A DNA stretch of 51,788 nucleotides, from NCBI GenBank assembly GCA_021846285.1, contig JAJZCB010000014.1, positions 1-51,788 of the forward strand, in the 5' to 3' direction. Origin of the DNA: Bacillota bacterium. Lineage in GTDB: Bacteria > Bacillota > Bacilli > Alicyclobacillales > SLC66. Below are positions 86 to 28,381 of this stretch, piece by piece. The number at the start of each line of letters is the position of its first letter. Positions within the stretch are counted from its first letter, which is position 1. The notes under the pieces were generated by a model. It did no database searches. It saw only the letters and a list, made by a program, of their open reading frames with translations, and was not told the origin of the DNA. The position numbers and the translations under genes were made by a program.

Positions 86-1477
86 TCAGTGGGAAAAACG
101 CCGACAGACAATGCAAGCAGCAACAACACCGAGTGCAGCCTGCCAGTCCCCTTGAAGCTTGTAGCCTGTAAAGCGGAAATCCCAGTTGGTTACACCGTAC
201 AGTTCACTCAGCACACCTGGTCGGTCATATTGCCGGGCCACACTCTGTGCCTGTTTGGCCGTGGAATACTCGCGATTATCACATAGCATGTCAATGCCGG
301 GAAGTTGGAAGGATCGGTACGAACGCATCGCTTCTCCAACAACACGTGTTTGCGAGAAAAGGGCAGGTTCTTCAAGCACATGCCCAGTCAACATGATTCC
401 ATGCGCTTCGCACCACATGCCGATCATGTCGGAAAACGCAGTCGAAAACCGCTCGCTCAAATGGTCATAATAACGGTAACGGGCGACAGAAACCTGTCCG
501 CGAGGGAGTTCCCAGAAAAGTTCCGGCAGAAAGTCCAGAAGCTCGTCTCCATAGGCCTGTTTGTAAGTGTCATTGAAATCATCAGTGAACGGCATGACAA
601 CCCCGCGCACCTCTCCGACGTTTCGTAAGTCTTCCTTGCGAGTAAAGTGGGGTTCATCGGTAAAAATCGCTGGAATTGAGCCGCCAAAGTCGTTTGCCAG
701 TTTGCTGTAGTACCTCTCATGGGTAATCTCAATGAATTTTTTTGTCGCCGCAGGGTCGAGGGTATTCACATAGGTCTGGTTATTGAACCACGGATCATCT
801 TTTTCAATCTCCAGGTACGCTCGCCAGATCACTGAATTCGTTCCAACATCTTCATCCCCCATAAGCCTTCTGTACGTGTGCAATCGTCCATCTTTCAATG
901 CGATTTCATAACTTGCGATAAAATAACCCTTAGGATTCCCGTTGTTCTCCACAACCCGATTAAACTCTTCTCTGCTTGACGCCATACCCGTGTTATCAAA
1001 TACTTCAGATGTAAACACGATGTATCTGGCCCTGTTGCGGATGTCCTGGGTGACATACCCTCCAGCAAAGCCAGAGCCCCAGCGGTCTTCGTCATACAAC
1101 CAGCACAGCATTTGATTGGTCTTGGCCTTTTCATTACACATCCTGACATACTCCATAAATTCATCGCTGAGGTATGGGATTGCCATACCCGTCCGGCTGT
1201 GAATGTGGAAGCCGCCAAACCCCATATCTTTCAGTACATCGATCTGTTTAAAAAGCGCGTGAATATCAAGTTTGCAATTCCAGGCCCAGAACGGCGCGCC
1301 TCTATACTCAGACGTGGGATTCATGAACAACCCAGAACTCAGAGTAGCTTCGGATTTTCTTGGATACAGCACCTGACGCACCCCGCCTTTCGGTACTGTT
1401 TCCAGGTGTGCGAGCGTTTCTTTGGACACATGCGCTGAGTGGTCATCAAGCACCATTTGGATCTTCATCCCTTTCAT
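86..1477 (-). CDS. GH106-like glycoside hydrolase, N-terminal catalytic part; frame lost near the window edge
   Basis: The 463 residues resemble the N-terminal TIM-barrel half of large GH106-like (alpha-L-rhamnosidase related) enzymes. Seen are the opening FMNPTSEYRGAPFWAWN, GFGGFHIHSRTGM, the LYDEDRWGSGFAGG block, and near the end LSELYGVTNWDFRFTGYKLQ. Relatives are usually 700-1000 residues, so this is about half of one. After the QAALGV block the frame reads into unrelated residues and meets TGA at 88-86. In another minus-strand frame, at about bases 3-45, residues reading RERSPPTFRQTPW look like the downstream family segment, so a frameshift around 105-130 is likely. No signal peptide is visible, so a cytoplasmic enzyme is expected. 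The start overlaps the stop of the GH127 gene (ATGA), so it is translationally coupled as the last gene of the glycan operon seen here. The family is confident at superfamily level only; substrate is inferred. Confidence 0.62.
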   Translation of the reverse strand: MKGMKIQMVLDDHSAHVSKETLAHLETVPKGGVRQVLYPRKSEATLSSGLFMNPTSEYRGAPFWAWNCKLDIHALFKQIDVLKDMGFGGFHIHSRTGMAIPYLSDEFMEYVRMCNEKAKTNQMLCWLYDEDRWGSGFAGGYVTQDIRNRARYIVFTSEVFDNTGMASSREEFNRVVENNGNPKGYFIASYEIALKDGRLHTYRRLMGDEDVGTNSVIWRAYLEIEKDDPWFNNQTYVNTLDPAATKKFIEITHERYYSKLANDFGGSIPAIFTDEPHFTRKEDLRNVGEVRGVVMPFTDDFNDTYKQAYGDELLDFLPELFWELPRGQVSVARYRYYDHLSERFSTAFSDMIGMWCEAHGIMLTGHVLEEPALFSQTRVVGEAMRSYRSFQLPGIDMLCDNREYSTAKQAQSVARQYDRPGVLSELYGVTNWDFRFTGYKLQGDWQAALGVVAACIVCRRFSH

Positions 1478-3162
1478 TCCTCGTCACATCCCTCACAACG
1501 GAGGATTCCCTCCTGAAACAGAACCTGGACGCGGCTCTTGCGCGCCTCTTCCATGGACAAGTAGGTCAACGAATTCAGGGGCAACAGACGCATCTCAACA
1601 CCCTCACATTCGTAGCCGTTATCCGTCCTCTTCCACCCGTGATGGCCGACTCGCGCGTTGACCGCTTCGCTTTCCCGAACACCCAATATCAGTGAACCGT
1701 GCCTGAGCGTCACCAAGTCTGACGTGTGGGACGAATTCAGGGCCGGAACCGTGCGCAGCCCGATGTCAAAGGTGTATGTGATCACATCCCCCCGCGCCGG
1801 GATCAGTTGCACTTGTGCAAATCCATTTTCAAACTCCGCCTTGCACGGGCGATCGTTCACCAGGATGCGAAGTGAATCACGAGCAATCCAACTTGGGCAG
1901 AAGAAACAGAAACGTTTGGGGCCAGTGGCGGATGTATTGAGCACCTCCAACTGGACGAATCCATCATTCGGATAGGTCGAGGATTGCCGTACGGACAGGA
2001 GTCCGTCCTCACACCGCAGTTGGGCATCGTGATCACCGAAAAAAACCACATACAGAGAATGTTGGTTTATCGCGTAGTGATACGTGCCCATCCGCGACAG
2101 TCCCTCACCACCCCGCATCGTGCAGCAGAAGGTTGCTTCAAAAATCTCATGCGGATGAAGTGTCAAACCCGCAGGTCCAACGCAACAGTCGCACCCGAAT
2201 CCGCCGTTGGGTCGTTGACCGTGAACCAAACCGTTGTAATAAATGTGGTGCGCGTCTTCAAGGTATTGAGAATTGTTTTCCACCCTCCACAATTCAAGAG
2301 CGGCAAGCAACGAATCGATGACTGCACAGGGCTCCGTCCAAGCAGGTCTGTCAAACCAGTTGTAATTCGCGTACGTCTCTGTCAATGCATGACCCATGTA
2401 CAGTTGATATAGAGATTTGGCGACCTCGACAAATCGGCTGTTCCCGGAAATCGCGCTGTACCGTAGAATGCCACGCAGCGCGGACAAAGTGGCATGAGTC
2501 TGGAACGAACACGTCACAATATCGGTTGCTCCGAGCGTATCTATCATCTCTTCGATGAGTTGTTGCAACGGAGCAATCGGCAAGACACTCTGGGCATGTG
2601 TCAAGCCGTCCAGGGCAATAAAAACACATCCAATATCCGTAGAAGTCAACCAACCGTTGGTGCGCGCTCCAGTGAGATGCCCCCCAACTCCGCCCGTTCG
2701 GGCGCGGTCCTCCGGACGAACTGGATATGTCCTGATTTTCCCGGCGGCAGGCAGGTACAGATTACGCACCATGTCCTCCACCATGTGTATCGAGTTCTGA
2801 TTCCCCGTCCACAGGTAATACTCTATCAAGCCTCGCATGGCCCAACTGTTCCCAGCCCATTGCTGCTCATTGATCGCGTTGTCTATCGTCGGACCAAAGT
2901 ATCCCTGGCTGTTTAGATGGTCTGGCCACGCAACGAAAATTTCGTGTACATGTGCAGCATCCACATGGAGCGCGCGCGACAACAACACCAACGCCAAGAG
3001 CAGACGGCCTTCCTTGTCTCCAGGCCATTCCGCAGTGTGTCCCACAAATACTTGCGATGGAAGGTATTCCGTTTGATGCAATCTCTCAAAATTCAACTGG
3101 AGACGGTTGAGTATGTCTCCCCCATGCTGAATTTCTGAAAAATCAAGCAGCTTCACATACAT
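1474..3162 (-). CDS. GH127-type (DUF1680) beta-L-arabinofuranosidase-like glycoside hydrolase
   Basis: A 562-residue protein of the GH127/GH146 (DUF1680) alpha/alpha-barrel group, whose known members release beta-L-arabinofuranose through a zinc-coordinated catalytic cysteine. Visible features are an early helical barrel with TGARTNGWLTSTDIG, a GFGCDCCVGP cysteine cluster in the middle and EATFCCTMRGGEGL, which matches the family's Cys-Cys-x-x-R-G-x-E signature; the last third is beta-rich. The ATG at 3162 is preferred over an upstream in-frame start because AGGAGAGGAGG lies just before it. No signal peptide, so it probably acts on imported oligosaccharides. It lies 40 bases after GH38 and overlaps the following GH106-like gene by four bases. 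The family is clear, but the substrate within GH127-like groups varies and cannot be read from sequence alone. Confidence 0.82.
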   Translation of the reverse strand: MYVKLLDFSEIQHGGDILNRLQLNFERLHQTEYLPSQVFVGHTAEWPGDKEGRLLLALVLLSRALHVDAAHVHEIFVAWPDHLNSQGYFGPTIDNAINEQQWAGNSWAMRGLIEYYLWTGNQNSIHMVEDMVRNLYLPAAGKIRTYPVRPEDRARTGGVGGHLTGARTNGWLTSTDIGCVFIALDGLTHAQSVLPIAPLQQLIEEMIDTLGATDIVTCSFQTHATLSALRGILRYSAISGNSRFVEVAKSLYQLYMGHALTETYANYNWFDRPAWTEPCAVIDSLLAALELWRVENNSQYLEDAHHIYYNGLVHGQRPNGGFGCDCCVGPAGLTLHPHEIFEATFCCTMRGGEGLSRMGTYHYAINQHSLYVVFFGDHDAQLRCEDGLLSVRQSSTYPNDGFVQLEVLNTSATGPKRFCFFCPSWIARDSLRILVNDRPCKAEFENGFAQVQLIPARGDVITYTFDIGLRTVPALNSSHTSDLVTLRHGSLILGVRESEAVNARVGHHGWKRTDNGYECEGVEMRLLPLNSLTYLSMEEARKSRVQVLFQEGILRCEGCDEE

Positions 3163-3202
3163 GCCCTCCTCTCCTGTTATCAGCCGTATCACAAAGAAAC
3201 TT

Positions 3203-3856
3203 TCACACCGATTCTTGGCTCTTCAATTGGATACTCTCTTCCATGAGGTCGGTCTGTTCTAGTGTCCGACCCCGGATATTTAGACGATATGTCCTGATTT
3301 CAAATCCGGTTAACGAAACCTCGCATTCAAGCCCCAGAGCCGGAATAGACAATTTTGTTGTTCTTGCACTTCCTGTCGGCTCGAACAAACGGATTACATA
3401 ATCACTTGACCCTTCACCACACTTGAAAGCCGTCATGAGCACCGTGTTGTCTCCGAGAATCACGCCAGGCAGCGGCTGCTCTCCTGAACCATGTGGAAAG
3501 AAAGACAAAACGTATGGCTCCTCGTTATGCGCGAGCGCCTGGCGGTCGATGGTATTCAAACGATGCCGGGTAGGCCCGGGCTCTAACCAGAAACGAAACA
3601 CTCTCTCGCCCTGATCAATACGCGGCGAAAAACGGTCGTCTCGCATGATCGGTCGATCCAGGATCGGATGACCTGAATATCCTGGAGAGCGGAGCAGTGT
3701 TAGCCTCAACTCTCCGTCCATGAAGTCTGAGCCATAGATGCCATCGTTGACGACGGTCAATACACACTCATCCCTATCAGAGACAAGCGCCTGCCATTTT
3801 TGTGAGATCGCCTCACTTCCGTTTGCGGGCAACGACTCAATTCCATAAGCGACTTG
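3203..3856 (-). pseudogene. C-terminal remainder of GH38 alpha-mannosidase, cut off by an in-frame TGA
   Basis: This stretch continues the GH38 gene in exactly the same frame after the TGA at 3859-3857. It encodes about 217 residues before its own stop, beginning QVAYGIESLPANG, which fits the beta-sandwich of GH38 enzymes where a YGI-E-P-NG type segment follows the central domain. Later PGYSGHP, SFFPHGSG and RLFEPTGS are typical of the GH38 C-terminal domain. A TTG at 3832 is in frame but has no convincing ribosome site, so independent translation is doubtful. Either the gene is a recent pseudogene, the two parts are made separately, or some readthrough of TGA-C occurs. A sequencing error is also possible. 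Confidence 0.75.
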
Positions 3857-5710
3857 TCAGAGGATATGCCCATCCAGAAATGGGGTGGGAACCGAGATTT
3901 TCAACAGCCTGCTTTTTTCGTTCCAAAATACCCGCACGTTCACCTCGACTTCAGTGCCGTGTTTGGGCAACTTGTATGTGAGCACAATAGAGGAGTGCCC
4001 GTACCGGAGAACAGCCTCTATGACAGTACGAACATCCCCATCCTCAATCACACGCACTGAATCGACTACTTGTCCGTGGATACCAGAAAACTTGCTCCCT
4101 TCCTCTGGCGACATTAGCTCAAAGTGGTCAATCACAGTCCGAAAATCAGCCACTTCCATGCCCCACGGATCATCAGTGTCTTCTATGACCAGCGGCATGA
4201 ATGAGTTGGGCAGAACATAATTGACTCCCTGAAACTCAAGACAATCCATCAGCCCCGTTTGACCGTTTATTCCCACGTGAAGTTCAGGTGTAAAAAAGTC
4301 AATCATTCTATTTTCTAATTTCATCTCCGGTCTCGGGCGGCCCGGTAGAACAGCAATACGACAGTCAAAACGATTGACGGTCGCAGGCTCCAGATGAGCG
4401 AAGAACACGATTCGCTTACGCCAATCGAGATTTAAGTTACTGTGTTCCTTCTCAGGCTGAGACGGAATCAGGGTTCCGTTTCGATAGACCAATGGCATTG
4501 AAAACTCCTCATTCCAATTCTGGTCTGGCAATTGAAATTCACATTCGAAAATGCCTTGCACCGTGTATGGATGTGGGTTGTACACCAGTATCGGAATCTC
4601 ACCTTCACGCGCCTTCCTCTGTCCTTGAGTCAAAGCAAAGAACATGCGTGCCTTTGCCCTGGAGACTATCTCAAGTCCATGGTCTAACAAACGCAATGAG
4701 GTTTCCTCAACAGGTTGAATGGATGTTCCTGGCAAGATGTCATGAAACTCGGACATCATCAGGTCGCACAGCGCTTCGTGAATCTCGACTTCCGGGTATC
4801 TGGCATACCCCTGTATGGACGCATGCGAGGCCATCTTTTCTAGCATATAGATCTCATTTTCAAGCAGACGGTGTTTCTGCTTGAGACGAATCTGTGATGT
4901 ATAGCACCCTGGATTCACGGTATTCAAATCTCTTTCGTGTCTTGGCAAGACGGTCATGTTCACCTTAATCTCTTCTATATACCGCTCGGGAGTGGAGTGC
5001 ATAATGCTCCATTCTCGAGAATCTCTCATAAGTGTTTGAAGCCGTGTCAAGTCAACTTGGGATGGTCCTCCACCGTGATTACCCACACCCCACAAAACCA
5101 TGCCGAATGGTTTATCGGCATTTTGCTCCATCCACTTCAATACCTTTTCATCTGCCTTGCCGAGTGCGGAATTGTAGAATTCAGCCGCATGATGCCCGAT
5201 GACCGTTGACCCGTCATAGCCGACCCATATGAAGTCATCGTCAGGTATGTCGACATCGCCCTGACTAGGCCTACAGAAGACATAAGAATCATAGCCGGAC
5301 TTATTCAGAATTTGCACCAAACCTCGGCTATGGCCGAAAGGATCAAAGTTAATTGCTGTGGTCGGTCTAACTCCAAATTTCTCAAAGAAATATTGCCTGC
5401 CGAGCAATATTTGCCGCACCAAAGACTCACCTGATGGCATATTGCAATCGGGTTGCAGGTACCAACCGCCCATGATATTCCATTTCCCGAGTTGCACCAA
5501 CTGGCGAATTCTGATGAATAACTCTGGCTCGTACTCCTCGACCCACTTGTACAAGATCACTTCATTGTGATTGAACACAAACCCATCAAATTGTTCACAG
5601 AAATCTGCCGCGACGCGGAAGGTCGATATCGCGGTTGCCACACCCTCCTCCCACTCCCACAGCCATACTGGGTCAATGTGGGCATTGCATAACAAGTGGA
5701 GTTTCTTCAC
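3857..5710 (-). CDS. GH38 alpha-mannosidase, N-terminal and central domains (interrupted gene)
   Basis: The protein opens with NAHIDPVWLWEWEEG, the zinc-binding His11/Asp13 motif of GH38, and has NFDPFGHSRG with Asp123 as the expected nucleophile. FHDILPGTSIQPVEE marks the helical middle domain. GH38 enzymes are retaining, zinc-dependent alpha-mannosidases. The frame stops at TGA after 617 codons, but the same frame continues for about 217 more residues of the family's C-terminal domain; together (3203-5710) they make a normal-sized enzyme of about 835 residues. The start is GTG at 5710 behind AGGAAGGG. No signal peptide. It lies 71 bases after a GH78 gene and before GH127 in the same operon. 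Because the sandwich domain completes the active-site architecture in this family, the truncated form may be inactive (inference). Confidence 0.85.
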   Translation of the reverse strand: MKKLHLLCNAHIDPVWLWEWEEGVATAISTFRVAADFCEQFDGFVFNHNEVILYKWVEEYEPELFIRIRQLVQLGKWNIMGGWYLQPDCNMPSGESLVRQILLGRQYFFEKFGVRPTTAINFDPFGHSRGLVQILNKSGYDSYVFCRPSQGDVDIPDDDFIWVGYDGSTVIGHHAAEFYNSALGKADEKVLKWMEQNADKPFGMVLWGVGNHGGGPSQVDLTRLQTLMRDSREWSIMHSTPERYIEEIKVNMTVLPRHERDLNTVNPGCYTSQIRLKQKHRLLENEIYMLEKMASHASIQGYARYPEVEIHEALCDLMMSEFHDILPGTSIQPVEETSLRLLDHGLEIVSRAKARMFFALTQGQRKAREGEIPILVYNPHPYTVQGIFECEFQLPDQNWNEEFSMPLVYRNGTLIPSQPEKEHSNLNLDWRKRIVFFAHLEPATVNRFDCRIAVLPGRPRPEMKLENRMIDFFTPELHVGINGQTGLMDCLEFQGVNYVLPNSFMPLVIEDTDDPWGMEVADFRTVIDHFELMSPEEGSKFSGIHGQVVDSVRVIEDGDVRTVIEAVLRYGHSSIVLTYKLPKHGTEVEVNVRVFWNEKSRLLKISVPTPFLDGHIL

Positions 5711-5781: not shown

Positions 5782-8448
5782 CTATAATTGAGTTTGCGTG
5801 TACGTGAATTCATACGTTCCGGACCCCAGATCCACTTCTACTCCGTCGGCCAACTGTCGAACGAGATGTACCCCATGAACGTCTCCAACCTTTGTTCCCC
5901 TCTCGAACACACGGTCCATCTCGGCCCCCGGCAGGCCCACTGTGGCAGTGGTGTTTGGTGGAATCTGCACGGTGATCTCAGTACGGGCCTCTTCGGTGTT
6001 GATCGCCCATTCACATCGGATCACACCATACATTGACTCGAACTGCGTGTTCGCGAATGTAAGAGAACCACCAGGCCTCGGGCTAAGTTTCACATGCTTG
6101 TACCCTGGTCTTGCAACATCCGTGCCGATTCCGCCGATGACCTGGTACATCCAGTCGCCCACGGAACCATAGGCATAGTGGTTGAACGAATTCATTGCGT
6201 CGCTCCAGAACGAGCCATCCGGTTTGACACTGTCCCAGTGCTCCCAAATCGTCGTCGCTCCGTGGAGCACGGAATACAGCCACGACGGATATTCGGTCTG
6301 CTGCACCAACGAGTAAGCTATGTCGGCATATCCTGCGTTCGTCAACGCATGACATAGATAAGGTGTGCCTACAAAACCTGTCGTTAACCGAAACCCATTT
6401 TCCTCAATGATTTGAGCCAATGTCTTTGACGTACGTTCTTTCACGATTCCAGTCACGAGATCGAAGGACAACGCCAGCACGTGAGCAGTCTGTGTCGGTG
6501 AAGCAAGTCTGCCCGAAGGGGTAACAAATTCTTCTCCAAAACTCTCCACAATCCGTTGGTATAACTGCTGATACATCGCGGCATCGTCATGTTTCTCCAA
6601 GATTCGCGCTGCGTTCGCCAGTATTTGGGTTGCATGAGCGTAAAAGGCTGTTGCGATGAGTTCATGTGGAGTTGAGCCGCGAAGATTGTTCTCATTGGCA
6701 TCCAATGCCAGCCAATCACCAACGTGGGAACCAGTAATCCATAAATATTCGCTGTTTCCCTGATTTCGGATGTACTCAACCCAAGCTTTCATGCTCGAGT
6801 ACTGGTTCTCCAAAACTCTCACATCGCCATAGCACAAGTACAATGTCCACGGACAGATGACTGCAGCGTCGCCCCATGCGGCTGACCTTCCTTCCTCACC
6901 CAGGATGTTGGGTATGACGTGCGGAACGCCTCCGTCGGAAAATTGATCCGCTTTCAAGTCACGCAGCCACTTTGTGAAAAACGGCGCGACATTCATGTTG
7001 AAGGCGGCAGTTCTAATGAAAACTTGTGCATCTCCTGTCCAACCCAGTCGCTCGTCCCTTTGCGGACAATCCGTGGGGATATCCACAAAATTTCCTTTCT
7101 GTCCCCAGACGATGTTTTGCTGCAATCGATTCAGAAGCTCGTCTGAGCACTTAAAACTCCCGGTCCGCTCCATGTCTGTGTGGATGACTCTTGCAATGAA
7201 ACTCGTCCGAAGTTCACCAGGAAACCCTTCCACCTTCACGTACCGGAACCCCTGGAACGTAAAATGAGGTTCAAAGCTCTCAACACCGTTACCCTTGCAC
7301 ACATAACGAATTGTCTGTTTGGCGCTTCGCAAATTCCCGATATAAAAATTGCCGGCGTGGTCAAGCACCTCGGCATGTTGGAGCGTGATCACAGTTCCCG
7401 GCCCTGCGACAACGCGAAATCGCACCCACCCGACCATGTTCTGCCCCATGTCAAGGACTGTTTCACCATTGGGTGTGTGAATCACCTGCACAGGATTTAT
7501 TTCCTGTATAACCCTGGTCGGCTGGTTTTCCTGAGCGATTAAGCTATCCTTGGGCAGGTGGAGCACTGCGGCTGCATTCCAGCCACCGTCGTCATAATCC
7601 GGGAGATTCCAGCCAACCTTCTCCAATCGCGCGTCGTAGGTCTCCCCATGATAAATGGAGGCCATCAATATCGGACCGGTGGCGCTCCTCCATGAGGAAC
7701 CGGACCCTACAATCTGTTCCCTCCCATCTTCATAGACAATATGCAATTGGACGAGCGCGGCACGTCGGTTCCCGAATAGGTTCCGTTTCTTCTCCCAACC
7801 GAGGTGCCCTTTGAACCATCCATCGCCAAGGGTCAGACCAATTGCATTTGTTCCCTGCATGAGCGATGCGGTAATGTCATAGGTCTGATACTGCAATCTC
7901 GTATCGTAGGAGGTCCAGCCAGGAGTCAATAACCAGTCTCCTACGCGTTGACCATTTAGATGCAATTCATACATACCCAGGCATGTCGCATAGATCCGAG
8001 CAGCGATCACAGGTCCGTAAACTTGAAACGTGGACCGAAATACATTACAGGGTTCATCGTCCGAATCCGGTGCAAGGAAATCGGTAATCCAATCGGCTCC
8101 CCATTCGTCCTTTGTTAGCAATCCCATCTCCCAAAATGCTGGTTCACTCCAGTCGGATGCCAGACCGTCCTGATCCCACACTCGGATGCGATAGTAATAG
8201 CGCACGCGAGAGAGAACGGGCAAACCTTGATATTCCACATGTATGGATTGATCCGTTTCAACTCGTCCGGTATCCCACACAAGGTGCCCAAAAGAACGGT
8301 CATCCCTTGATACTTGAATGTGATACGCAGATTGCATGACGCCGCGGTTAGGAGCAGATATTTGCCAACTCAGTCTCGGATGGCGCTCCCCTATACCGAT
8401 CGGATTATGCCGATATTCACATTGAAGTTTTGTCACCGCCAACGTCAT
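5782..8448 (-). CDS. GH78 alpha-L-rhamnosidase (first of two)
   Basis: An 888-residue inverting GH78 alpha-L-rhamnosidase. The N-terminus (RHNPIGIGERHPRLSW) is the usual beta-sandwich opening, followed by ATCLGMYELHLNGQRVGDWLLTPGWT of the Bac_rhamnosid_N module. The catalytic barrel shows PTDCPQRDERLGWTGDAQ, which holds the acidic cluster used for catalysis, and GATTIWEHWDS with the candidate second catalytic Glu. SFNHYAYGSVGDWMYQ and the C-terminal all-beta domain complete the family layout. The ATG at 8448 was chosen over a GTG at 8466 because GAGGAGAG sits at the right distance before it. No signal peptide, so it trims imported rhamnosides inside the cell. It lies 84 bases downstream of the sulfatase in the operon. 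Confidence 0.93.
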   Translation of the reverse strand: MTLAVTKLQCEYRHNPIGIGERHPRLSWQISAPNRGVMQSAYHIQVSRDDRSFGHLVWDTGRVETDQSIHVEYQGLPVLSRVRYYYRIRVWDQDGLASDWSEPAFWEMGLLTKDEWGADWITDFLAPDSDDEPCNVFRSTFQVYGPVIAARIYATCLGMYELHLNGQRVGDWLLTPGWTSYDTRLQYQTYDITASLMQGTNAIGLTLGDGWFKGHLGWEKKRNLFGNRRAALVQLHIVYEDGREQIVGSGSSWRSATGPILMASIYHGETYDARLEKVGWNLPDYDDGGWNAAAVLHLPKDSLIAQENQPTRVIQEINPVQVIHTPNGETVLDMGQNMVGWVRFRVVAGPGTVITLQHAEVLDHAGNFYIGNLRSAKQTIRYVCKGNGVESFEPHFTFQGFRYVKVEGFPGELRTSFIARVIHTDMERTGSFKCSDELLNRLQQNIVWGQKGNFVDIPTDCPQRDERLGWTGDAQVFIRTAAFNMNVAPFFTKWLRDLKADQFSDGGVPHVIPNILGEEGRSAAWGDAAVICPWTLYLCYGDVRVLENQYSSMKAWVEYIRNQGNSEYLWITGSHVGDWLALDANENNLRGSTPHELIATAFYAHATQILANAARILEKHDDAAMYQQLYQRIVESFGEEFVTPSGRLASPTQTAHVLALSFDLVTGIVKERTSKTLAQIIEENGFRLTTGFVGTPYLCHALTNAGYADIAYSLVQQTEYPSWLYSVLHGATTIWEHWDSVKPDGSFWSDAMNSFNHYAYGSVGDWMYQVIGGIGTDVARPGYKHVKLSPRPGGSLTFANTQFESMYGVIRCEWAINTEEARTEITVQIPPNTTATVGLPGAEMDRVFERGTKVGDVHGVHLVRQLADGVEVDLGSGTYEFTYTQTQL

Positions 8449-8532
8449 CCTCAAATCTCTCCTCACATCCAGTTGGAACCAGGATTGCCCTTGATGAACA
8501 AAACCGCATAGTCACCATGGTCAAAGCCGTTG

Positions 8533-12921: not shown

Positions 12922-12954
12922 GTTCGCAACCTCCAAAACTCAAGAAGATAAACT

Positions 12955-18059: not shown

Positions 18060-18170
18060 CTGAATCACTCCTTTTTTATAGAATGTGAACTCCCGTCCGT
18101 ATAGTGCCGTGTCGATCACGCCATGTCGCTCACCCCCCTGGTCACAGAGCGTGAGATGCAAGCTCACACC

Positions 18171-18836: not shown

Positions 18837-18849
18837 ACCGCATCCCCCT

Positions 18850-21147
18850 CTAATGACCGACTGACTCTGCGTCAAAATCGCCTTCCAGCGACGCAATCCG
18901 CTTCAACCAGAGTTTGTATTGGCTCAATGAAAATGGCGGCTGACCCAGCAGATAGTGATTTCCATGCTTTTCATCGCCGATGGTCCATTCCAACAGAATC
19001 AGTTTTTTATCCGACCTCGAGATGGGGATCCGAACCAGAGACGCATTTTCATTCGCCTCCACCTGAAACGCGCCCTCCGCCAGCAATCGATCACCGTCCG
19101 CATCCACAATTCGATAGTCTCCACGGCTTGCTTGGTTCGAATCGTTCCCGGCCATCACCTCAACCGCCCAATTTTCGGGCTCGCGAACCATCAGACACAC
19201 CGACTCCTGCGAACGACGAATATAGTGGTACGCTAGTTTCTTCCCGAAAAAGTAGTCCACGATCGCGTCTGAAAACTGCGGCCACCCGTCCATCAAATTC
19301 CACCAGATGATTCCGGTTCGTCTCCATTTTTTCAGTCGCGTCATTTCGATGAACGTCTTTTTCGCTTCCGCCTGGGAAATCTGCGACGCCAACACAAAGT
19401 CTTCCATGGAATCTGGAATGAATCCGAACAATTCCCTGATTTGATTGGCCATCAACTCGACACGGTACGGATTGTCCGCCATGTCGGTCGAATGCAGGAT
19501 CCACTGACGATTGTCCTGCCACGGCCATACATGGGGCTCGTCGATGAACTTCCGAATCGAACTGACATTGGGACAGCCATGATATCCGATCTCGCTGACG
19601 AAGTGTGCCTTATGGTCTGTGTAGTATGGACTCTTGTAATAGTCGCGCGGTCCCCAAATGTGATCCTCCGGCGGAGACGAGGCGGCCTTTTCCAATATGT
19701 ACGTAGGCGACAGGTAGGGAGAGCTGGGTAAATATGGCCTGAACGGATCACACTTAGCAATCACTTGTGGCAAAACTTCACGGGTGATGCGGTTCTTATC
19801 CGGATCGACATACAGATAGTCGCACTCATTGTCGCCGCACCAAAGGACTATCGAGGCGTGCCGCCGTAACTTTCTGACAACCGATATCCCCTCTTGTCTC
19901 ACTTTCTCCAGAAACCGCTCGTCCTGCGGATACGGCGCACAAGCCATGGAGAAGTCTTGCCACACCATTAACCCGTTGCGATCGCACAGATCGAAAAAGC
20001 TATGGTCTTCATACACGTTGCCACCCCAGCAACGGACGATATTGCAATTCAATTCAACCGCCATCGCCAAAATCGACGGAATTCGCTCCGCGTCGCGACT
20101 ATGGAAGACATCAGCGGGAACCCAATTCGTTCCCTTGCAGAGAATGGGCGTGTTGTTGATCTTCAAAAGAAACTGACCATCCCTGTCTCCAGCCACGTCC
20201 GATCGCACCAACTCAACCTCACGAATGCCAAACTGAAGATTCCGACTGGCCTCAATGTTCCCGTTGACGAGAAATTCCAGAGTGGCTTCATACAGGTGCG
20301 CCTCACCGTATCCGCGTGGCCACCACAGTTCCGGATTGGGCACGTGAAACCCGTTTGACAAGGCTCCTGACGAGAATCGCACGGCACTCAGAAATTCAAA
20401 CTGCGAATTCTTGCATGCGCCGCTGAGACGAAGCGAGAGGTTTTCCATCAGGGCCGCAGGCGGCATCCCAAGTTGAAAAAACAGAGCTAGCCTGGCTTGC
20501 TTGTCGTCCGCGGCAATCGTCTGCACATAAGCATCGAGAATCTCATACGGGCCGTGGAACACGAGTTCCACCGACCGCCAGATGCCTGCAGACAAGGCGC
20601 GCGGCATGATGTCCCAGCCATAACTGTGGGCTGCCTTGCGAATCCACAGCCGATCCCAATCAATATGCCAAGACACATAGCCGGGATCGTACTCCTCCTC
20701 AAGCGCCGCCATCAACGGCGACCGAAGGCGGACATGGAGGCGATTGATCTTGCCCTTCATTAGATGCTCGGTCACGTTGAACCGATGTTCCACCAGCATG
20801 TTCTCGCTCGCGCCGAGCAGGACGCCGTTCAGCCAATAGGTGGCCAAACAGTCCACGCCGTGAAACACCATTTCCACTTTTCCCGGGTGAAATGCATCGG
20901 CGACCAAGAACTCTTTTTCGTACCACCACTCGTTTAACTCCAGATCACGCAGTTGGCGTACTCCGTCGCCAATCAAGGGATCTCCCAGTTTTCCCGCGGA
21001 TACCAGGTCCAGTTCCACATTCCCGGGTACTGTCGCTGGAACCGACTCCATACCGCTCTGCGCAAGATCGCTCGGACGTCCAACCGAACTCCTGTCCTGA
21101 CGCCAATAGTACAATTTCCATTCTCCGTTTAGACTCTCAACCCGCAC
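18850..21147 (-). CDS. GH2 beta-mannosidase-like enzyme
   Basis: A 765-residue GH2 enzyme with the beta-mannosidase layout: sugar-binding domain from residue 1 (SLNGEWKLYYW, YWLNGVLLGASENML), Ig-like domain, then TIM barrel. The acid/base is Glu441 in LWCGDNECD and the nucleophile Glu519 in VSEIGYHG. It lacks the long C-terminal extension of some members. The start is GTG at 21147 behind a weak GGGGGTGGGA. No signal peptide. It lies 62 bases after the permease gene and 13 bases before the SGNH esterase. It differs clearly from the second GH2 at 25898-28381 (nucleophile block SEIGYHG versus SEFGFQS), so the pair may have different linkage or acceptor preference. GH2 also holds glucosaminidases and galactosidases, so mannosidase is the best but not the only reading. 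Confidence 0.85.
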   Translation of the reverse strand: MRVESLNGEWKLYYWRQDRSSVGRPSDLAQSGMESVPATVPGNVELDLVSAGKLGDPLIGDGVRQLRDLELNEWWYEKEFLVADAFHPGKVEMVFHGVDCLATYWLNGVLLGASENMLVEHRFNVTEHLMKGKINRLHVRLRSPLMAALEEEYDPGYVSWHIDWDRLWIRKAAHSYGWDIMPRALSAGIWRSVELVFHGPYEILDAYVQTIAADDKQARLALFFQLGMPPAALMENLSLRLSGACKNSQFEFLSAVRFSSGALSNGFHVPNPELWWPRGYGEAHLYEATLEFLVNGNIEASRNLQFGIREVELVRSDVAGDRDGQFLLKINNTPILCKGTNWVPADVFHSRDAERIPSILAMAVELNCNIVRCWGGNVYEDHSFFDLCDRNGLMVWQDFSMACAPYPQDERFLEKVRQEGISVVRKLRRHASIVLWCGDNECDYLYVDPDKNRITREVLPQVIAKCDPFRPYLPSSPYLSPTYILEKAASSPPEDHIWGPRDYYKSPYYTDHKAHFVSEIGYHGCPNVSSIRKFIDEPHVWPWQDNRQWILHSTDMADNPYRVELMANQIRELFGFIPDSMEDFVLASQISQAEAKKTFIEMTRLKKWRRTGIIWWNLMDGWPQFSDAIVDYFFGKKLAYHYIRRSQESVCLMVREPENWAVEVMAGNDSNQASRGDYRIVDADGDRLLAEGAFQVEANENASLVRIPISRSDKKLILLEWTIGDEKHGNHYLLGQPPFSLSQYKLWLKRIASLEGDFDAESVGH

Positions 21148-21209: not shown

Positions 21210-22040
21210 CTAAAATTTCATGGCTCCAGCCGTGATGCCTTGCATGAACATGCGCATGGTCAACAGGAACATGATAAGAATGGGAATGGAAGCGATGGTA
21301 TAACCGGCAAACATGGGACCATACGAGGTATTGGCGAGAAACTCCCCTTGAAACTGAACCAGCCCGACGGTAAGGGTCATCTTGTTCGGGGAAGTCAGGA
21401 CTAGAAGCGGCAGAATGTAATCGCTCCAAATTCCCATGACATTCATGATAGCCAATGTACCGATGGTCGCCTTGGTCAGCGGCAATGCAATATATAGAAA
21501 TGCCTTGAACTCCGAACAACCATCCATCCGCGCTGATTCAAACAACTCTTCGGGCAGATTGGCCATCATCTGGCGAAGCACGAAAATGGTGAACGCCTGC
21601 CCTCCCGCCGCGTAAACCAAGACCAATCCGAACCGGTGGTTCAACAGACCGAATTTCTCGATTTCCAGAAACAACGGAATCAGCGTCAGAGCGCCAGGAA
21701 TCATCATCAACGCAATCATGGCCATGTACAAAAATCCTTTGCCACGAAAGCGCAAGCGAGCAAAGGCATAGGCGGTGACGGAAGTGGTCACCACAATGAT
21801 CACCACGCTGAGCACCGTAATGACCGCTGAATTGATCACATATGGTTCGACTGCCGCCCAAGCCGCCGCATAGTTGCCCCAATCAAACGGGAATGAGATC
21901 CCCAGGGAATTTGAAAAAAACTGTGGATTCGACTTGAGAGAGGTAGCAAGCATATAGTAAAACGGAAACAAGGACAGGGCGACCAACACGATTAAAACCA
22001 CATGACTTGCCAGGTCGCGTTTGATTATTTTCCACGTCAA
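21210..22040 (-). CDS. Sugar ABC transporter permease (MalG/AraQ type)
   Basis: A 276-residue inner-membrane permease of the carbohydrate uptake-1 family with six predicted membrane segments. The EAA loop that contacts the ATPase is visible as ESARMDGCSEFKAFLYIALP, and the C-terminus ends GITAGAMKF as is usual for MalG-type partners. The start is a TTG at 22040 with a weak GGGTGAG ahead of it. It follows the other permease by 19 bases. No ATPase gene is present in the locus, so a shared MsmX-type ATPase encoded elsewhere is expected. Confidence 0.92.
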   Translation of the reverse strand: MTWKIIKRDLASHVVLIVLVALSLFPFYYMLATSLKSNPQFFSNSLGISFPFDWGNYAAAWAAVEPYVINSAVITVLSVVIIVVTTSVTAYAFARLRFRGKGFLYMAMIALMMIPGALTLIPLFLEIEKFGLLNHRFGLVLVYAAGGQAFTIFVLRQMMANLPEELFESARMDGCSEFKAFLYIALPLTKATIGTLAIMNVMGIWSDYILPLLVLTSPNKMTLTVGLVQFQGEFLANTSYGPMFAGYTIASIPILIMFLLTMRMFMQGITAGAMKF

Positions 22041-22059: not shown

Positions 22060-22980
22060 TCAGTTGACAAACTCCTCGCTTGGGCGTATGAACTTGTTCT
22101 GGACCCATGTCAATACCAGGACCATTACAAAAATAATCATCGCAATGGCTAGTCCCAGCGACATTTGGTTATTCTGAAACGCATCGAAGTACATCATCAA
22201 CGCCGGCATATACGTTGCATACCCGGGACCGCCGTTCGTCAATACGAGCGGCCCCATCACGTTTTGCAACAGTCCAATGACAGTCAGAATCATCAGGAGC
22301 TTGGTCTGTCCCAAAAGCAGCGGAAACTCGATTTTGAAAAAGCGCGACAGCGCGGAACAGCCGTCAAGAGTGGCGGCTTCAAACACCGACTCGGATACAT
22401 GCTGCAAGCCTGCGTAAAAAATCAGTAGATTGAAAGGAACGACAAATGGCAAACCCACCAACATCAGGGCTACCAAAGCAAGGTTGGGATCTCCCAACCA
22501 ATCGGGTGTAAGCGATGTGAAACCGAAGTGGTGTATCAGTGAATTGATGACCCCCAGGTTGGGATCGTAGAGAAAGCTCCAAATCATCAAGAGTACGACG
22601 CCGGGCACCACCATCGGTACGACAAACAGCACACGGTAGACATATTGCGCCCGAAGGCTGCGCAAGTGAAAGATGAGCGAAGCGGTGACCAACGGTACCG
22701 CGAGGTCCACGAACAGTTTGAAAAGCCCCCACAACAAGAGGTGCCACATCGACAGCCAGAAGATCGGATCCGACAAGACCTGCTGATAGTTTGTCAGACC
22801 TGAATACTGCGGCGGGTTGAAACCATCCCACGTGGTAAATGAATACACGATCGCGACAATCACCGGAAAATATGAGAAAGTGAGCATCAAGATAAATGAT
22901 GGCGCAATCAGTCCATAAGCGACTGGGGAATGGCGGGAAAGTTTTCTGGTTTTCCGGCTCTGCAACATCCGTTCCATCAT
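22060..22980 (-). CDS. Sugar ABC transporter permease (MalF/UgpA type)
   Basis: A 306-residue permease with an N-terminal basic stretch, PVAYGLIAPSFILML as first membrane helix, and the EAA-type loop EAATLDGCSALSRFFKIEFPLL. LTNGGPGYAT is typical of MalF-like subunits. It pairs with the next gene to form the membrane channel for the binding protein encoded upstream. ATG at 22980 is preferred because GGAGGG lies about ten bases upstream; another ATG directly follows, and one at 22998 overlaps the ribosome site. Confidence 0.9.
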   Translation of the reverse strand: MMERMLQSRKTRKLSRHSPVAYGLIAPSFILMLTFSYFPVIVAIVYSFTTWDGFNPPQYSGLTNYQQVLSDPIFWLSMWHLLLWGLFKLFVDLAVPLVTASLIFHLRSLRAQYVYRVLFVVPMVVPGVVLLMIWSFLYDPNLGVINSLIHHFGFTSLTPDWLGDPNLALVALMLVGLPFVVPFNLLIFYAGLQHVSESVFEAATLDGCSALSRFFKIEFPLLLGQTKLLMILTVIGLLQNVMGPLVLTNGGPGYATYMPALMMYFDAFQNNQMSLGLAIAMIIFVMVLVLTWVQNKFIRPSEEFVN

Positions 22981-23170
22981 GCCTTGTATTCCCTCCATCC
23001 TCGTACGAGCCGTGCAACTCCATGGCCTTGGGATACTATAAAAGCAAAGCCGCAGTCAACCGGCGCCTCGGCGCCAACGCTTCGAAACCCCGGACGACTG
23101 CGGCGTCTCCATCCGATTACACTCGAGATAACGAACGGCGCCAAGAGATAACGCCGTACAATCTGATTTT
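22981..23170 (-). terminator. Intercistronic hairpin between binding protein and permeases (partial terminator or stabiliser)
   Basis: On the minus strand, a 9-bp stem (GACTGCGGC/GCCGCAGTC; arms at 23096-23104 and 23049-23057) encloses a second perfect GGCGCC hairpin and is followed by TTTGCTTTT. A smaller stem (ACGGCG/CGCCGT, 23135-23157) and a 20-base-spaced direct repeat of GAGATAACG (23125 and 23145) lie just after the binding-protein stop. This fits a leaky terminator or 3'-end protector that keeps binding-protein mRNA in excess over permease mRNA, a known pattern for such operons. Termination strength is inferred. Confidence 0.5.
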
Positions 23171-24673
23171 TTATCGAATTCCCCACTGGGACAGGTTCCA
23201 GTGATTCTGAGAAATCAACTGGTCGGCCGCCGCTACCATTTGCTGCTCACACGTGGCTTCAAAACTAGCCAGCGACATCTGTCCTCCAATCCAACTTTGA
23301 TACGCGCGGTAGATGGCGTCTTCTTCATTCTGAGTAAGATCCATACCGCCGTCTATAAAGTTGGTCGAGGCCTGTGTCTGCCGATACAAATCCTTCATAT
23401 CCGGAAGTGGCGTGGCGCCAATCACAGTCGGCACAAAGCCGGCAGATTCGTTGACAATGAAAGAATCATGTGCTGGCGTAGATAAGAACTGCAGCCAATT
23501 GATCACCGCCTTCATCTTGGCCGGCGTCATGGAGGAATCGGCCCTGGGTGTCGAAACGGAGTAATTGAAACCACCGCCGAAGGGACCGCCAAGTCCCGGA
23601 TAGAAGGTGTTGGTCGCATACTTGCTGGTCTGTTTGGTTAACAAAGGAATCTTGAAGGTGCCCCACTGAAATGACGGATTCTGCTGGATGATGGTGGGCG
23701 CTGAATAGCTCCCGTCGAGCCAAATTCCGACATTCCCCGTCAGGAACGCCTGAAACGGCGCGACACCATTGTTGTCGTTGGCCTCCACATTTGGTTGCCA
23801 ATACTTGGCGAGTGTTTGGATGATGGGCCACATCGCCTTCCATCGGGGATTCGGCGTGCCGATGACGCCCTTCTTAATGGCGATCACATAGTCCTCTTGG
23901 CTGATCTGAGCCTGTTTGGTATACCGCAATTGGTTGAATTGACTGGCGAAGAAGTTCGAGTAAAAAATGCGCGGCAACCAGCCCAGGTTCCTCATTTCGC
24001 CGTTATAACCGCCAGCCACGTCCCATTCCATCGGTACGTCGCCAATCGCTTTGATCTTGGCCAAGTCGGTCATCATTTGTGACCACGTCTTCGGCGTCGC
24101 TGTAATGCCCGCTTTCTTGAAAACATCCTTGTTGTAGTACATGGCAACACCGACATAGTCCCCGTTGACGACATATTGTCCGCCATCCGGGGATACATAC
24201 TGCGCCGTAATATTCGGTTGAAACTCTGTGGACCATTTCTTCCCGCCCAAGTACGGATCTGGTTGCTGCAGATACGGCTTGAGGTTGGTGAATATTCCCG
24301 ACGGATATGACGACAGTGACAAGACGTTTTGCGGGGTAATATCCGGTGCTTGTCCCCCGTCCGCTTTGGCAAGCAACCAGGGTGTAATGGATTGTCCGGA
24401 AGGTGACGTCACGAATTGAATCGTGATCCCCGGATGCAGTTTTTCAAATTCCTTCGCCAGCACTTTTGTGGCCACGTATTGAATCCCGAAACCTTGCTGC
24501 CCTTTCGGCGGCGGCGGCGAAGGAGTGTACGCCCCTGCGTCCATGGTAATAACACCCTTAAACGTCAAATTGCCGCTTCCGGCACTGGCCGCGCTTACAT
24601 TCGCCGCCGGCAATACGGTCACAACAGTCGCGAGCGACGCAACTGCCGCCAGCCCCTTCCTCCATTTCGTCAT
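23171..24673 (-). CDS. Extracellular sugar-binding protein of ABC importer (MalE-like)
   Basis: A 500-residue family-1 solute-binding protein. ATG at 24673 has AGAGGAGG at nine bases. The signal peptide (MTKWRKGLAAVASLATVV, continuing to about NVSAASAG) has no lipobox cysteine, which is unusual for a Gram-positive binding protein. Mature features include FEKLHPGITIQFVTSPSG, YNKDVFKKAGITATPKTW and QAFLTGNVGIWLDGSY, all typical of oligosaccharide binders. It is the first gene of the minus-strand operon, divergent from the AraC regulator, and is followed by a hairpin and two permeases. The ligand is probably an oligosaccharide from the GH5 target glycan (inference). Confidence 0.92.
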   Translation of the reverse strand: MTKWRKGLAAVASLATVVTVLPAANVSAASAGSGNLTFKGVITMDAGAYTPSPPPPKGQQGFGIQYVATKVLAKEFEKLHPGITIQFVTSPSGQSITPWLLAKADGGQAPDITPQNVLSLSSYPSGIFTNLKPYLQQPDPYLGGKKWSTEFQPNITAQYVSPDGGQYVVNGDYVGVAMYYNKDVFKKAGITATPKTWSQMMTDLAKIKAIGDVPMEWDVAGGYNGEMRNLGWLPRIFYSNFFASQFNQLRYTKQAQISQEDYVIAIKKGVIGTPNPRWKAMWPIIQTLAKYWQPNVEANDNNGVAPFQAFLTGNVGIWLDGSYSAPTIIQQNPSFQWGTFKIPLLTKQTSKYATNTFYPGLGGPFGGGFNYSVSTPRADSSMTPAKMKAVINWLQFLSTPAHDSFIVNESAGFVPTVIGATPLPDMKDLYRQTQASTNFIDGGMDLTQNEEDAIYRAYQSWIGGQMSLASFEATCEQQMVAAADQLISQNHWNLSQWGIR

Positions 24674-24787
24674 TGCCATCATCCTCCTCTGTTTTGACTG
24701 CTTCCCACCACGCATTTCCCCGACGACAGCTTTTCAACAGTTCGGCACCTTCATGATCAGGCTCCCCCTCTTTCTATGAAACGACTC

Positions 24788-24808: not shown

Positions 24809-24813
24809 AATAG

Positions 24814-24904: not shown

Positions 24905-25843
24905 GTGGACCTCACGTTTTATTCGATGAATCGATTGTCGACCATCGACGTTAAATGGGCAGATTTGCACTCCGCTAACAACGAATTTCTCAATGTTGTT
25001 CATTCTAATCCCTTCTATGAGATTCTGGCGGTGACACAGGGACCCGTATTCATTCAGGTTCAAGACGAGAAATTGTCACTTCAGGCCGGCGAAGTGTTGC
25101 TATTGTCGCCGTGGGAAGAGCACATGGGGTGGAAACCCGTAGATGAATCGGCAGGATTTTTTTGGGTTCAATTTGCTTTACAACCCAGCCTTGGAAGACC
25201 TCTCACCATTCAAGAATTCACCACAGAAATGAATATGATCCATGCCGACCAATCAGATTTACGAACTGAAGGGTTACACTCTACCGAAACAATCTTGATT
25301 CCGAGATGGGGAAAGTTGACTCATCGATATCGGGTGCTTTCCGTATTCGAAGAAATTCGACATCAACTTTTGCATCCGACGGGTTACTACCGACTTCGGA
25401 CCTCATTGATGTTGGGGCAAATTCTTGAAATGATTGCTTCTGACCTCCTCAACCATTTGGAATTGCAGCGCTCCTTCCCCAAGTCTTTTTTAATATATCG
25501 TCGCGTGGTCAACTTTTTGGATGAAAATTACAAGAGGGACCTATCTCCCGAAGTTATAGAGCAACACCTGCAACGAAAATATGGATATTTATGTAACGTA
25601 TTTAAAAGATACTCAGGCATAACCATGTATTCTTATATTCTGCGATTGCGGGTTCAGTTGGCCAGCCACCTGCTGGCCACAACCAACGCCAGCATCCATG
25701 ATATTGCCTGCATGACCGGATATGACGACCCGTTATATTTTAGCCGTTGCTTTAAGAAAATGATGTCCGCGAGTCCGTCGGAATACCGAACACAGCAGCA
25801 GATCTCTAAAGTTAACAGCTCCCCGCCGTCTTTTCAGAAATGA
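24905..25843 (+). CDS. AraC-family transcriptional regulator
   Basis: A 312-residue regulator. Residues about 20-170 form a cupin-like sugar-sensing domain (YEILAVTQGPVFIQVQ, LQAGEVLLLSPWEEHMGW). Residues about 205-300 are the double helix-turn-helix of AraC proteins, with LSPEVIEQHLQRKYGYLCNV and the conserved DIACMTGYDDPLYFSRCFKK followed by SPSEYR. The start is GTG at 24905 with GGAGG eight bases upstream. It is divergent from the glycan transport operon and 54 bases before a GH2 gene on its own strand, which makes it the probable pathway activator responding to an imported sugar (inference from context). Confidence 0.92.
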   Translation: MDLTFYSMNRLSTIDVKWADLHSANNEFLNVVHSNPFYEILAVTQGPVFIQVQDEKLSLQAGEVLLLSPWEEHMGWKPVDESAGFFWVQFALQPSLGRPLTIQEFTTEMNMIHADQSDLRTEGLHSTETILIPRWGKLTHRYRVLSVFEEIRHQLLHPTGYYRLRTSLMLGQILEMIASDLLNHLELQRSFPKSFLIYRRVVNFLDENYKRDLSPEVIEQHLQRKYGYLCNVFKRYSGITMYSYILRLRVQLASHLLATTNASIHDIACMTGYDDPLYFSRCFKKMMSASPSEYRTQQQISKVNSSPPSFQK

Positions 25844-25897: not shown

Positions 25898-28381
25898 ATG
25901 AAAACACTTGACTTGGCAGGCGTATGGGCGCTGCTCCAATGTGAATCAGGGGAAATCGTGGAGGGCCTTGTTCCAGGAAGCGTTATGTTGGATCTGCTGC
26001 GGGCAGGTAAAATGGAAAACCCCTTTTATCGCGATCGTGAAGAGCGCGTGGCAGATGCGTACGCACGGCACAATTACCTGTATTCCCGAAAGTTCACGGT
26101 AGACAGCGAATTGTTGGACTGTGCGGCTGTGCTCCTTGTTTGTGAGGGGCTCGACACGTTGGCGGATGTACGGATCAATGGGCAACTGGTTGCCTCCACA
26201 GATAACATGCACAGGCGCTATGAGTGGAATGTGCGCCGCCATCTTGTAGCGGGTCGCAATGAAATCAGCGTATTGCTGCGTTCTCCGTTACCCCTGATGG
26301 AGGAACGTGAGCAAGCAGATCCGCTCTGGGGTGCGGCCGAAACCATCGCAGGGTTCACCCATATACGCAAAGGACATTTTATGTTTGGCTGGGATTGGGG
26401 TCCGCAGATACCTGATGCGGGGATCTGGCGACCGATCTATCTTCAGGGCATCAAGAGCGTACGGATCGCGGATGTCCAAGTGACGCAGCGACACGAAGGT
26501 GAGCAGGTCATGCTGGCTGTGCGCGTACAAGTTGATGTATTCGGTGAAGAGTTTGCTGCCGCTCAAGTGCGAATCACGGTGACTGCGCCAAATGGAGAGC
26601 ACATCGCACACGCCGTCAAGGCGGAGTTTGGGGAGGTACAGCATACTATCATCGTTGCTCAACCGCAGTTATGGTGGCCGAGGGGTTATGGCGACCAACC
26701 GCTGTACAACGTCAAAGTGGAATTACTGGCAAACTCAGGCGCAATCGATGAACGATCCCTTCGCCTCGGTCTGCGGACTATCCAACTGCGACGGGAAGCG
26801 GATCAGTGGGGTGAATCGTTTGAATTCGTTGTTAACGGAATCCCTATATTTATAAGAGGAGCCAACTACATTCCGGAAGACAACTTGCTTAGCAGATGCA
26901 GTCGCGAGCGCACAGAGCGGTTGCTCAGAGATGCTGAGGCGGCGAACTTCAACGCCCTGCGCGTCTGGGGCGGAGGCATCTATCCGGAGGACTACTTCTA
27001 TGATTTGTGCGACAAATTCGGACTGCTCGTATGGCAGGACTTCATGTTTGCCTGCGGGGTTTACCGTCTGACGCCGACGTTTGAAGCGACGGTGCGGCAG
27101 GAAGCGGTCGACAACATCCGGCGTATCCGTCACCATGCCAGCCTGTGTCTGTGGTGCGGCAACAATGAAATGGAGACGGCATGGGCAAATTGGGACATTC
27201 CCAAACCAGATGATTTGCGCGCTGATTACCTGCGTCTTTTTGAAGGGATTCTGCCGTCGATCGTGGCGGAACAGGATCCGCAAACTCCCTACTGGCCCTC
27301 GTCACCTTCCTCCGGCGGCGGCTTCGTTGTACCGAATGACCAACATCGCGGGGATGTTCATTACTGGGAGGTGTGGCACGCGCTCAAACCGTTCACAGAA
27401 TACCGCAAGTACCACTTTCGGTTTTGCTCAGAATTTGGCTTTCAATCGTTTCCAGGCGACAAGACGGTGCGTGAGTTTACTCTCCCTGAGGATCGCAACA
27501 TCTTTTCTTATGTGATGGAACGGCATCAGAAAAACGGCGACGCCAATGGCAAGATCCTATACTACCTTGCGCAAAATTTTAAGTATCCGCGAGACTTTTC
27601 CGCCGTGCTATACGCATCGCAGATTCTTCAGGCTGAAGCGATACGCTATGGCGTGGAACACTGGCGACGCAATCGGGGTCGCTGCATGGGGTCGATCTAC
27701 TGGCAGCTCAATGACTGCTGGCCGGTGGCCTCGTGGTCCAGCATTGATAGTGCGGGGAGATGGAAAGCGCTACACTATTTTGCCAAACGTTTCTACATCC
27801 CAGTGCTGTTATCTGCGCAGGAAGATGGCACTACCGTTAGGCTATGCGTGACAAACGATACTAGAGAGACCGTACGCGGCGAAGTCGTCTGGCGCTTGCG
27901 CGATGAGTACTCGCGTGTGCAAACTTACGGTCAAGAGTCAGTCACTGTGTCCGCACTGACAGTTGAGCAACTGTCTGCGCTTGACTTTGCGGGTCAACTG
28001 ACCACTGACCGCGCACGGCGTTCCACTTACTTCGAATATGCGCTGCGCGTGAACGGAGAGCACGTCAGCGGGGGAACGGTCCTTTTTGTTCCGACAAAGC
28101 ATTTTACATTTGTGCCACCGAAGGTTGCGATAGCCGTGACAGAGACGCCTGACCACTTTTCCCTAACGATCACCGCGCAGGCTTTTGCCAAGTTTGTGGA
28201 ACTGGAGTTGAGCGTCGAGGACGCACAGTTTAGTGACAACTACTTTGATATTTCGGCAGGTGAGATTACGACGATCACAGTGGCAAAAACATCGCTTTCC
28301 ACAGTGTTGACGTTGGCAGAATTCCGTAATCAGTTGCGGGTGCGCAGCGTCTATGATCTGGATGCCATCGTCGATGTATGA
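25898..28381 (+). CDS. GH2 beta-mannosidase
   Basis: An 827-residue enzyme with the full beta-mannosidase architecture: N-terminal sugar-binding sandwich (LVPGSVMLDLLRAGKMENPF), HFMFGWDWGPQIPDAGIWRP, Ig-like domain with LWWPRGYGDQPLYNV, then the TIM barrel. The acid/base Glu424 is in LWCGNNEMET and the nucleophile Glu512 in FRFCSEFGFQSFP; the C-terminal Ig-like modules are present. It releases beta-linked mannose from the non-reducing end. ATG at 25898 follows GAGGAG eight bases upstream. No signal peptide. It is probably co-transcribed with the AraC-like gene. The match to known beta-mannosidases is closer than that of the other GH2 in the locus. Confidence 0.92.
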   Translation: MKTLDLAGVWALLQCESGEIVEGLVPGSVMLDLLRAGKMENPFYRDREERVADAYARHNYLYSRKFTVDSELLDCAAVLLVCEGLDTLADVRINGQLVASTDNMHRRYEWNVRRHLVAGRNEISVLLRSPLPLMEEREQADPLWGAAETIAGFTHIRKGHFMFGWDWGPQIPDAGIWRPIYLQGIKSVRIADVQVTQRHEGEQVMLAVRVQVDVFGEEFAAAQVRITVTAPNGEHIAHAVKAEFGEVQHTIIVAQPQLWWPRGYGDQPLYNVKVELLANSGAIDERSLRLGLRTIQLRREADQWGESFEFVVNGIPIFIRGANYIPEDNLLSRCSRERTERLLRDAEAANFNALRVWGGGIYPEDYFYDLCDKFGLLVWQDFMFACGVYRLTPTFEATVRQEAVDNIRRIRHHASLCLWCGNNEMETAWANWDIPKPDDLRADYLRLFEGILPSIVAEQDPQTPYWPSSPSSGGGFVVPNDQHRGDVHYWEVWHALKPFTEYRKYHFRFCSEFGFQSFPGDKTVREFTLPEDRNIFSYVMERHQKNGDANGKILYYLAQNFKYPRDFSAVLYASQILQAEAIRYGVEHWRRNRGRCMGSIYWQLNDCWPVASWSSIDSAGRWKALHYFAKRFYIPVLLSAQEDGTTVRLCVTNDTRETVRGEVVWRLRDEYSRVQTYGQESVTVSALTVEQLSALDFAGQLTTDRARRSTYFEYALRVNGEHVSGGTVLFVPTKHFTFVPPKVAIAVTETPDHFSLTITAQAFAKFVELELSVEDAQFSDNYFDISAGEITTITVAKTSLSTVLTLAEFRNQLRVRSVYDLDAIVDV

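Follow-up and report, generated by a model that had tools for sequence, protein, structure and literature searches.

The window analysed here is a stretch of 51,788 nucleotides from a member of the Bacillota (contig JAJZCB010000014.1, termed C96, of the draft genome G000, which comprises 3.9 Mb in 164 contigs and is 98% complete), and its positions 86 to 28,381 are occupied by a locus of glycosidase, esterase and sugar-importer genes. Protein families were assigned by Pfam and NCBIfam scans of the window's predicted proteins, which confirmed in place nearly all of the family names proposed in an initial annotation of the sequence. An AraC-family regulator (24905-25843, plus strand) is encoded divergently from the operon and is followed on the same strand by GH2b (25898-28381), a glycoside hydrolase (GH) whose closest relatives are beta-mannosidases. 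All other genes of the locus lie on the minus strand. The importer genes, encoding a solute-binding protein (23171-24715), permease 1 (22060-22998) and permease 2 (21210-22040), adjoin the regulator and the glycosidases. Next to these are found GH2a (18850-21147), which is beta-mannosidase-like and closest to the solved structure 9nfe, a recent GH2 entry for which no paper was found; an SGNH/GDSL hydrolase with its triad motifs present (18171-18896, likely start near 18836); an endo-acting GH5 enzyme with a CBM4_9-type module (16122-18167); and a 623-residue ADP-ribosylglycohydrolase-family protein (14098-15969), overlooked in the initial annotation, between GH5 and GH172 (DUF2961; 12955-14052). 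The remainder consists of GH78b (10189-12936; best solved relative 3w5m), a sulfatase (8533-10110), GH78a (5782-8466), a GH38 alpha-mannosidase gene (3203-5710), a GH127-like enzyme (1474-3162) and the N-terminal part of a GH106-like enzyme (86-1477), at which the contig ends.

The locus proves to be a genuine, conserved operon that belongs to a known kind and shows a new combination of genes. A sister species of the same genus, represented by genome G012 (JAJZEE010000048.1), is the sole second genome in which the operon is conserved, and it occupies there the same chromosomal place, with the same order and flanks, one inserted cassette excepted. The GH106-like gene is the last of the locus in both genomes, and the same unrelated genes follow it. 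The sister locus is split over two contigs (C159 and C1), which meet within the binding-protein gene. Intergenic gaps within the locus range from -4 to 78 bases, save two of 152 and 172 bases, and the genes shared by the two species are under purifying selection, with ratios of non-synonymous to synonymous substitution (dN/dS, G000 against G012) of 0.05-0.31, compared with 0.12-0.22 in the flanks. The importer genes come without an ATPase of their own; a shared ATPase of the MalK/MsmX type is encoded elsewhere in G000. Together, these features bear out the original proposal of a single glycan-utilisation locus. The core common to both species comprises the AraC regulator, the MalEFG-type importer, secreted GH5, two beta-mannosidase-type GH2 enzymes, one GH78 (GH78b), the GH106-like and GH127-like enzymes, the sulfatase, the SGNH esterase and the ADP-ribosylglycohydrolase-family protein. 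An inverted repeat (eight pairs with a loop of seven) is also present at 16034-16056, inside the 152-base gap between the ADP-ribosylglycohydrolase-family and GH5 genes.

GH172, GH78a and GH38 are missing from the sister operon, where the sulfatase gene lacks its own stop codon and runs on into the GH127-like gene; this fusion looks like a deletion scar left by the loss of GH78a and GH38. At the position of GH172 the sister carries ~590 bases that were assigned by eye to the C-terminal portion of a GH2 gene. These three enzymes would represent accessory modules that were gained or lost between species. A scan of named genomes for more distant copies of the locus by way of GH5 returned only the sister, one relative of 37% identity and one weak hit.

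A hydropathy scan of N-termini, which is not a trained signal-peptide predictor, located a strongly hydrophobic stretch in only two of the soluble proteins, GH5 (MAMAMALLLGVVGL) and the binding protein, in support of the claim that GH5 is the sole secreted enzyme. No signal peptide was seen in the sulfatase or the SGNH hydrolase. The solute-binding proteins at 23171-24715 of the window and at L010:3806-5119 possess a signal peptide and no lipobox cysteine, which is unusual in a Gram-positive bacterium. The locus probably serves glycan utilisation on the Gram-positive plan, as an operon controlled by a divergently encoded AraC regulator, in which secretion, import and cytoplasmic trimming follow one another; the order of the steps and the activities of the enzymes are inferred. 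Secreted GH5 would cleave a beta-linked backbone outside the cell, and the resulting oligosaccharides would be taken up by the binding protein and the two permeases, energised by the shared ATPase. Within the cytoplasm, the SGNH hydrolase and the sulfatase would strip esters, and GH78, the GH106-like and GH127-like enzymes, the two GH2 enzymes and the ADP-ribosylglycohydrolase-family protein would trim the sugars. Xanthan is likewise used by means of an extracellular endo-enzyme and intracellular exo-enzymes (PMC10881899), and a Gram-positive D-arabinan locus follows the same general plan (PMC10509167). One secreted endo-enzyme combined with an importer and cytoplasmic exo-enzymes is thus the ordinary Gram-positive layout; the nearly complete cytoplasmic breakdown proposed in the initial annotation fits it, and is therefore to be expected rather than a feature that sets this locus apart.

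Two of the genes are broken in G000, and neither lesion had been recognised. The open reading frame at 86-1477 encodes residues 1-453 of a GH106-like protein of ~1030 amino acids, followed by a few codons of an insertion sequence, whilst the remainder of the gene lies at the end of contig C69 (68666-70438), where the C-terminal part matches the sister at 91%. Foreign sequence borders the split gene at both contig ends, each half carries the same 5-bp target duplication (GGTGT), and the gene is uninterrupted in the sister. The 125 bases at the end of the window (1-125, no strand assigned) recur at several other sites in G000, mostly contig ends; the boundary is identical in every case and the flank differs. 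They are the end of a multi-copy insertion sequence, recognised from its ends (TGTTGCTGC and TGTTTACGCC) and from the duplication; no transposase was seen. Several contigs of G000 are broken by this element, and C96 stops at this edge because a copy sits there. An assembly error was considered as the origin of the short reading frame and rejected, given that the 125-base end recurs, differently flanked, at several contig ends and that the insertion is accompanied by a 5-bp duplication. The insertion sequence was not found in G012 or in G011. Beyond the insertion, the GH106-like gene still has a dN/dS of ~0.21, so the damage is recent. The GH38 gene, in turn, keeps to one frame and is interrupted by a single TGA (3857-3859) at codon 618 of 835, a position that is read through in the full-length homologue (837 residues) of G010, a genome of another genus; a frameshift was rejected since the stop lies in the same frame. 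Because of this TGA, no complete open reading frame spans the N-terminal, middle and C-terminal GH38 domains. With two genes broken, the pathway in G000 is probably being remodelled or reduced. The locus therefore offers a clean example of operon change, in which a core is common to two species, accessory enzymes are swapped and damage by an insertion sequence is fresh.

Pfam matches support both GH78 enzymes, GH38, both GH2 enzymes, GH172, GH5, the sulfatase, the SGNH hydrolase, the importer and AraC, whereas the GH106 and GH127 assignments hold only as '-like'. The terminal protein gave no Pfam GH106 match over the cut-off, even near its full length, although relatives at ~33% identity exceed that cut-off. 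In a profile-profile comparison (HHalign) with GH106 it scored a probability of 99.3% (E 1.3e-20), with unrelated controls below 7%, and on this evidence it is GH106-like, as a remote homologue only. Genes 54% identical to it elsewhere in the phylum were examined as markers of related loci and set aside, their neighbours being GH42 and GH29 rather than sulfatases. The GH127-like enzyme, for which an ATG at 3162 behind AGGAGAGGAGG is the likely start (the listed frame begins with GTG at 3192), matches the GH127 middle domain with 27.2 bits (cut-off 24.2) and falls 0.3 bits short in the catalytic domain (24.6; cut-off 24.9). A two-sequence AlphaFold model of it was too poor for a structure search (pLDDT 41), and among NCBIfam models it matches aceric acid hydrolase best, at 43.8 bits far under that model's cut-off of 950. 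Degradation of rhamnogalacturonan-II uses GH78, GH106 and a GH127 aceric acid hydrolase, and the presence together of GH78, GH106-like and GH127-like enzymes recalls that system; in contrast to it, the window contains a sulfatase and no polygalacturonan enzymes. Both GH78 proteins, including accessory GH78a, carry the general acid and base motifs (RDERLGW and TTIWE.WD) along with the domain set of the family.

The ADP-ribosylglycohydrolase-family protein was identified by a profile match, has a C-terminal extension and retains the NDD and DTDCT metal motifs, whose aspartates are conserved among its relatives. Elsewhere in the phylum, such relatives are encoded close to sugar importers; they were rejected as markers of the same locus, since their neighbours include importers and not this enzyme set, a GH5 (at 34%) being found on one contig. 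A literature search returned nothing that ties ADP-ribosylglycohydrolases to polysaccharide loci, and no assignment of furanosidase activity to this fold was found in the literature searched. Its fixation inside a glycan operon is a testable oddity. It is doubtful that the locus serves an undescribed sulfated, rhamnose-containing glycan and that, at the same time, this protein is a true glycan-trimming furanosidase.

The sulfatase carries the formylglycine-type signature C-x-P-S-R-x4-TG, reading PLCAPSRATFLTG. Some 10 kb from the locus, and conserved in the sister, is an anaerobic sulfatase maturase of the radical SAM/SPASM type (38134-39261, minus strand; NCBIfam, 398.9 bits against a cut-off of 349.45), a probable helper of this sulfatase. 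Sulfate in the substrate is plausible because a formylglycine-type sulfatase and a nearby maturase occur together, and with the SGNH triad a substrate that is both sulfated and acetylated is plausible from these motifs. A second maturase, 84% identical to that of the window, is located at L071:482-1558 (contig C75 of G000), with another sulfatase-family gene on the same contig. A further sulfatase-family gene lies near a GH38 of 1096 residues at L070:6637-15790 (contig C27 of G000), possibly a separate glycan locus.

The core genes of both species argue for a backbone with beta-linkages (GH5), for rhamnose or a similar sugar (GH78b and the GH106-like enzyme), for esters (SGNH) and sulfate (sulfatase and maturase) and, less surely, for beta-mannose (the GH2 pair). 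The initial annotation had labelled the substrate as of the rhamnose/mannose/arabinose type, which is weaker than stated. Alpha-mannose and D-arabinofuranose do not belong to the core, because the GH38 gene is broken in G000 and none of GH38, GH78a and GH172 occurs in the sister operon; furthermore, the solved enzyme most similar to GH172 is the exo-alpha-D-arabinofuranosidase 8ic8 (E 1.5e-97), which points to D- and not L-arabinofuranose. The initial guess had taken broken and accessory genes for core ones, and is corrected here. Our own guess is a heteroglycan that is acidic, contains rhamnose and has a backbone resembling beta-glucan or beta-mannan. The polymer cannot be named from sequence and is not shown to be new. 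No locus with this enzyme set was found in the literature, which is weak evidence given partial coverage of that literature, and an unmatched list of enzymes is no evidence for the undescribed substrate that had been suggested.

Some observations weigh against the interpretation as a working operon. A presumed single transcript found no support in scans for terminators and promoters, which gave nothing above chance; since the genome is a draft in many contigs, strain variation or a sequencing error could account for the TGA in GH38; and RhaA was found in neither genome, in a search that did not cover RhaI-type isomerases and dehydrogenase routes, so it is unproven that the bacterium uses the rhamnose set free. 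The interrupted GH106-like gene and the stop codon within GH38 could also signify that the locus is decaying and no longer functions in this species. This is quite unlikely, as the remaining genes are open and constrained and the dN/dS of the sequence behind the insertion, given above, shows the damage to be recent.

Rhamnosylated relatives of xanthan are exemplified by the structure of acetan, and the locus could be directed at a xanthan- or acetan-like exopolysaccharide, with GH5 acting on a cellulose-like backbone, GH2 beta-mannosidases replacing xanthan lyase, GH38 removing the inner alpha-mannose, the SGNH hydrolase acetyl groups and GH78 rhamnose. GH5 is closest to endoglucanases, including an enzyme of Thermogutta terrifontis, which grows on xanthan and has predicted beta-mannosidases in place of the lyase, along with a GH38 (PMC5673643). 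GH38, cytoplasmic exo-enzymes and an ABC importer also fit known xanthan loci, and the Gram-positive clusters of Microbacterium sp. XT11, Bacillus sp. GL1 and R.UCG13 similarly combine a secreted endo-enzyme, an ABC importer, cytoplasmic exo-glycosidases with GH38, and esterases (PMC10881899). Nevertheless, such a substrate is unlikely: among the window proteins there is neither a polysaccharide lyase of family 8 (PL8) nor a GH88 with a xanthan-specific endo-glucanase, and GH9, GH94 and GH105 are likewise missing; GH38 is broken in G000, absent from the sister operon and thus not core. The window instead adds GH78, the GH106-like and GH127-like enzymes, the sulfatase and the ADP-ribosylglycohydrolase-family protein, whilst rhamnose, arabinose and sulfate do not occur in xanthan. 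Very unlikely is an actinobacterial cell-wall glycan, lipoarabinomannan or arabinogalactan, from which GH172 would remove alpha-D-arabinofuranose, GH38 mannose and GH78 the linker rhamnose. The resemblance of GH172 to the exo-alpha-D-arabinofuranosidase of the Microbacterium arabinogalactanolyticum D-arabinan locus (PMC10509167), which shares the importer and the Gram-positive layout, favours it, as does an importer cassette with GH172 and GH183 near the same region of the sister. However, a genome search found the GH183 endo-D-arabinanase nowhere in G000, and in G012 it is confined to that other cassette; GH116 is also lacking from the window, GH172 stands outside the sister's core operon, and GH5 and the sulfatase, present here with GH78 instead, would have no obvious role. 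Ulvan loci of marine Bacteroidota such as Formosa agariphila (PMC8511951) resemble the operon in that GH78 rhamnosidases accompany sulfatases. They differ in that the window has no ulvan lyase or GH105/GH88, employs an ABC importer with no TonB/SusCD system and encodes one cytoplasmic sulfatase only.

The sister's cassette (L062:5498-13723, contig C159) is a second sugar cassette, flanked by the sulfatase maturase on one side and a GGDEF gene on the other. It contains AraC, a binding protein, two permeases, GH172, a DUF4185 protein (the GH183 endo-D-arabinanase) and a PfkB kinase, and looks like a D-arabinan locus; no cassette of this type is present in the window. Elsewhere in the window, at 34288-36752, a C5-cytosine methylase gene adjoins an Eco57I-type methylase gene, an arrangement kept in the sister that is likely to represent a restriction-modification or methylation pair. 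Finally, between 43000 and 46000 an FtsX/ABC gene pair stands out by a GC content of 0.63-0.65, compared with ~0.53 around it.

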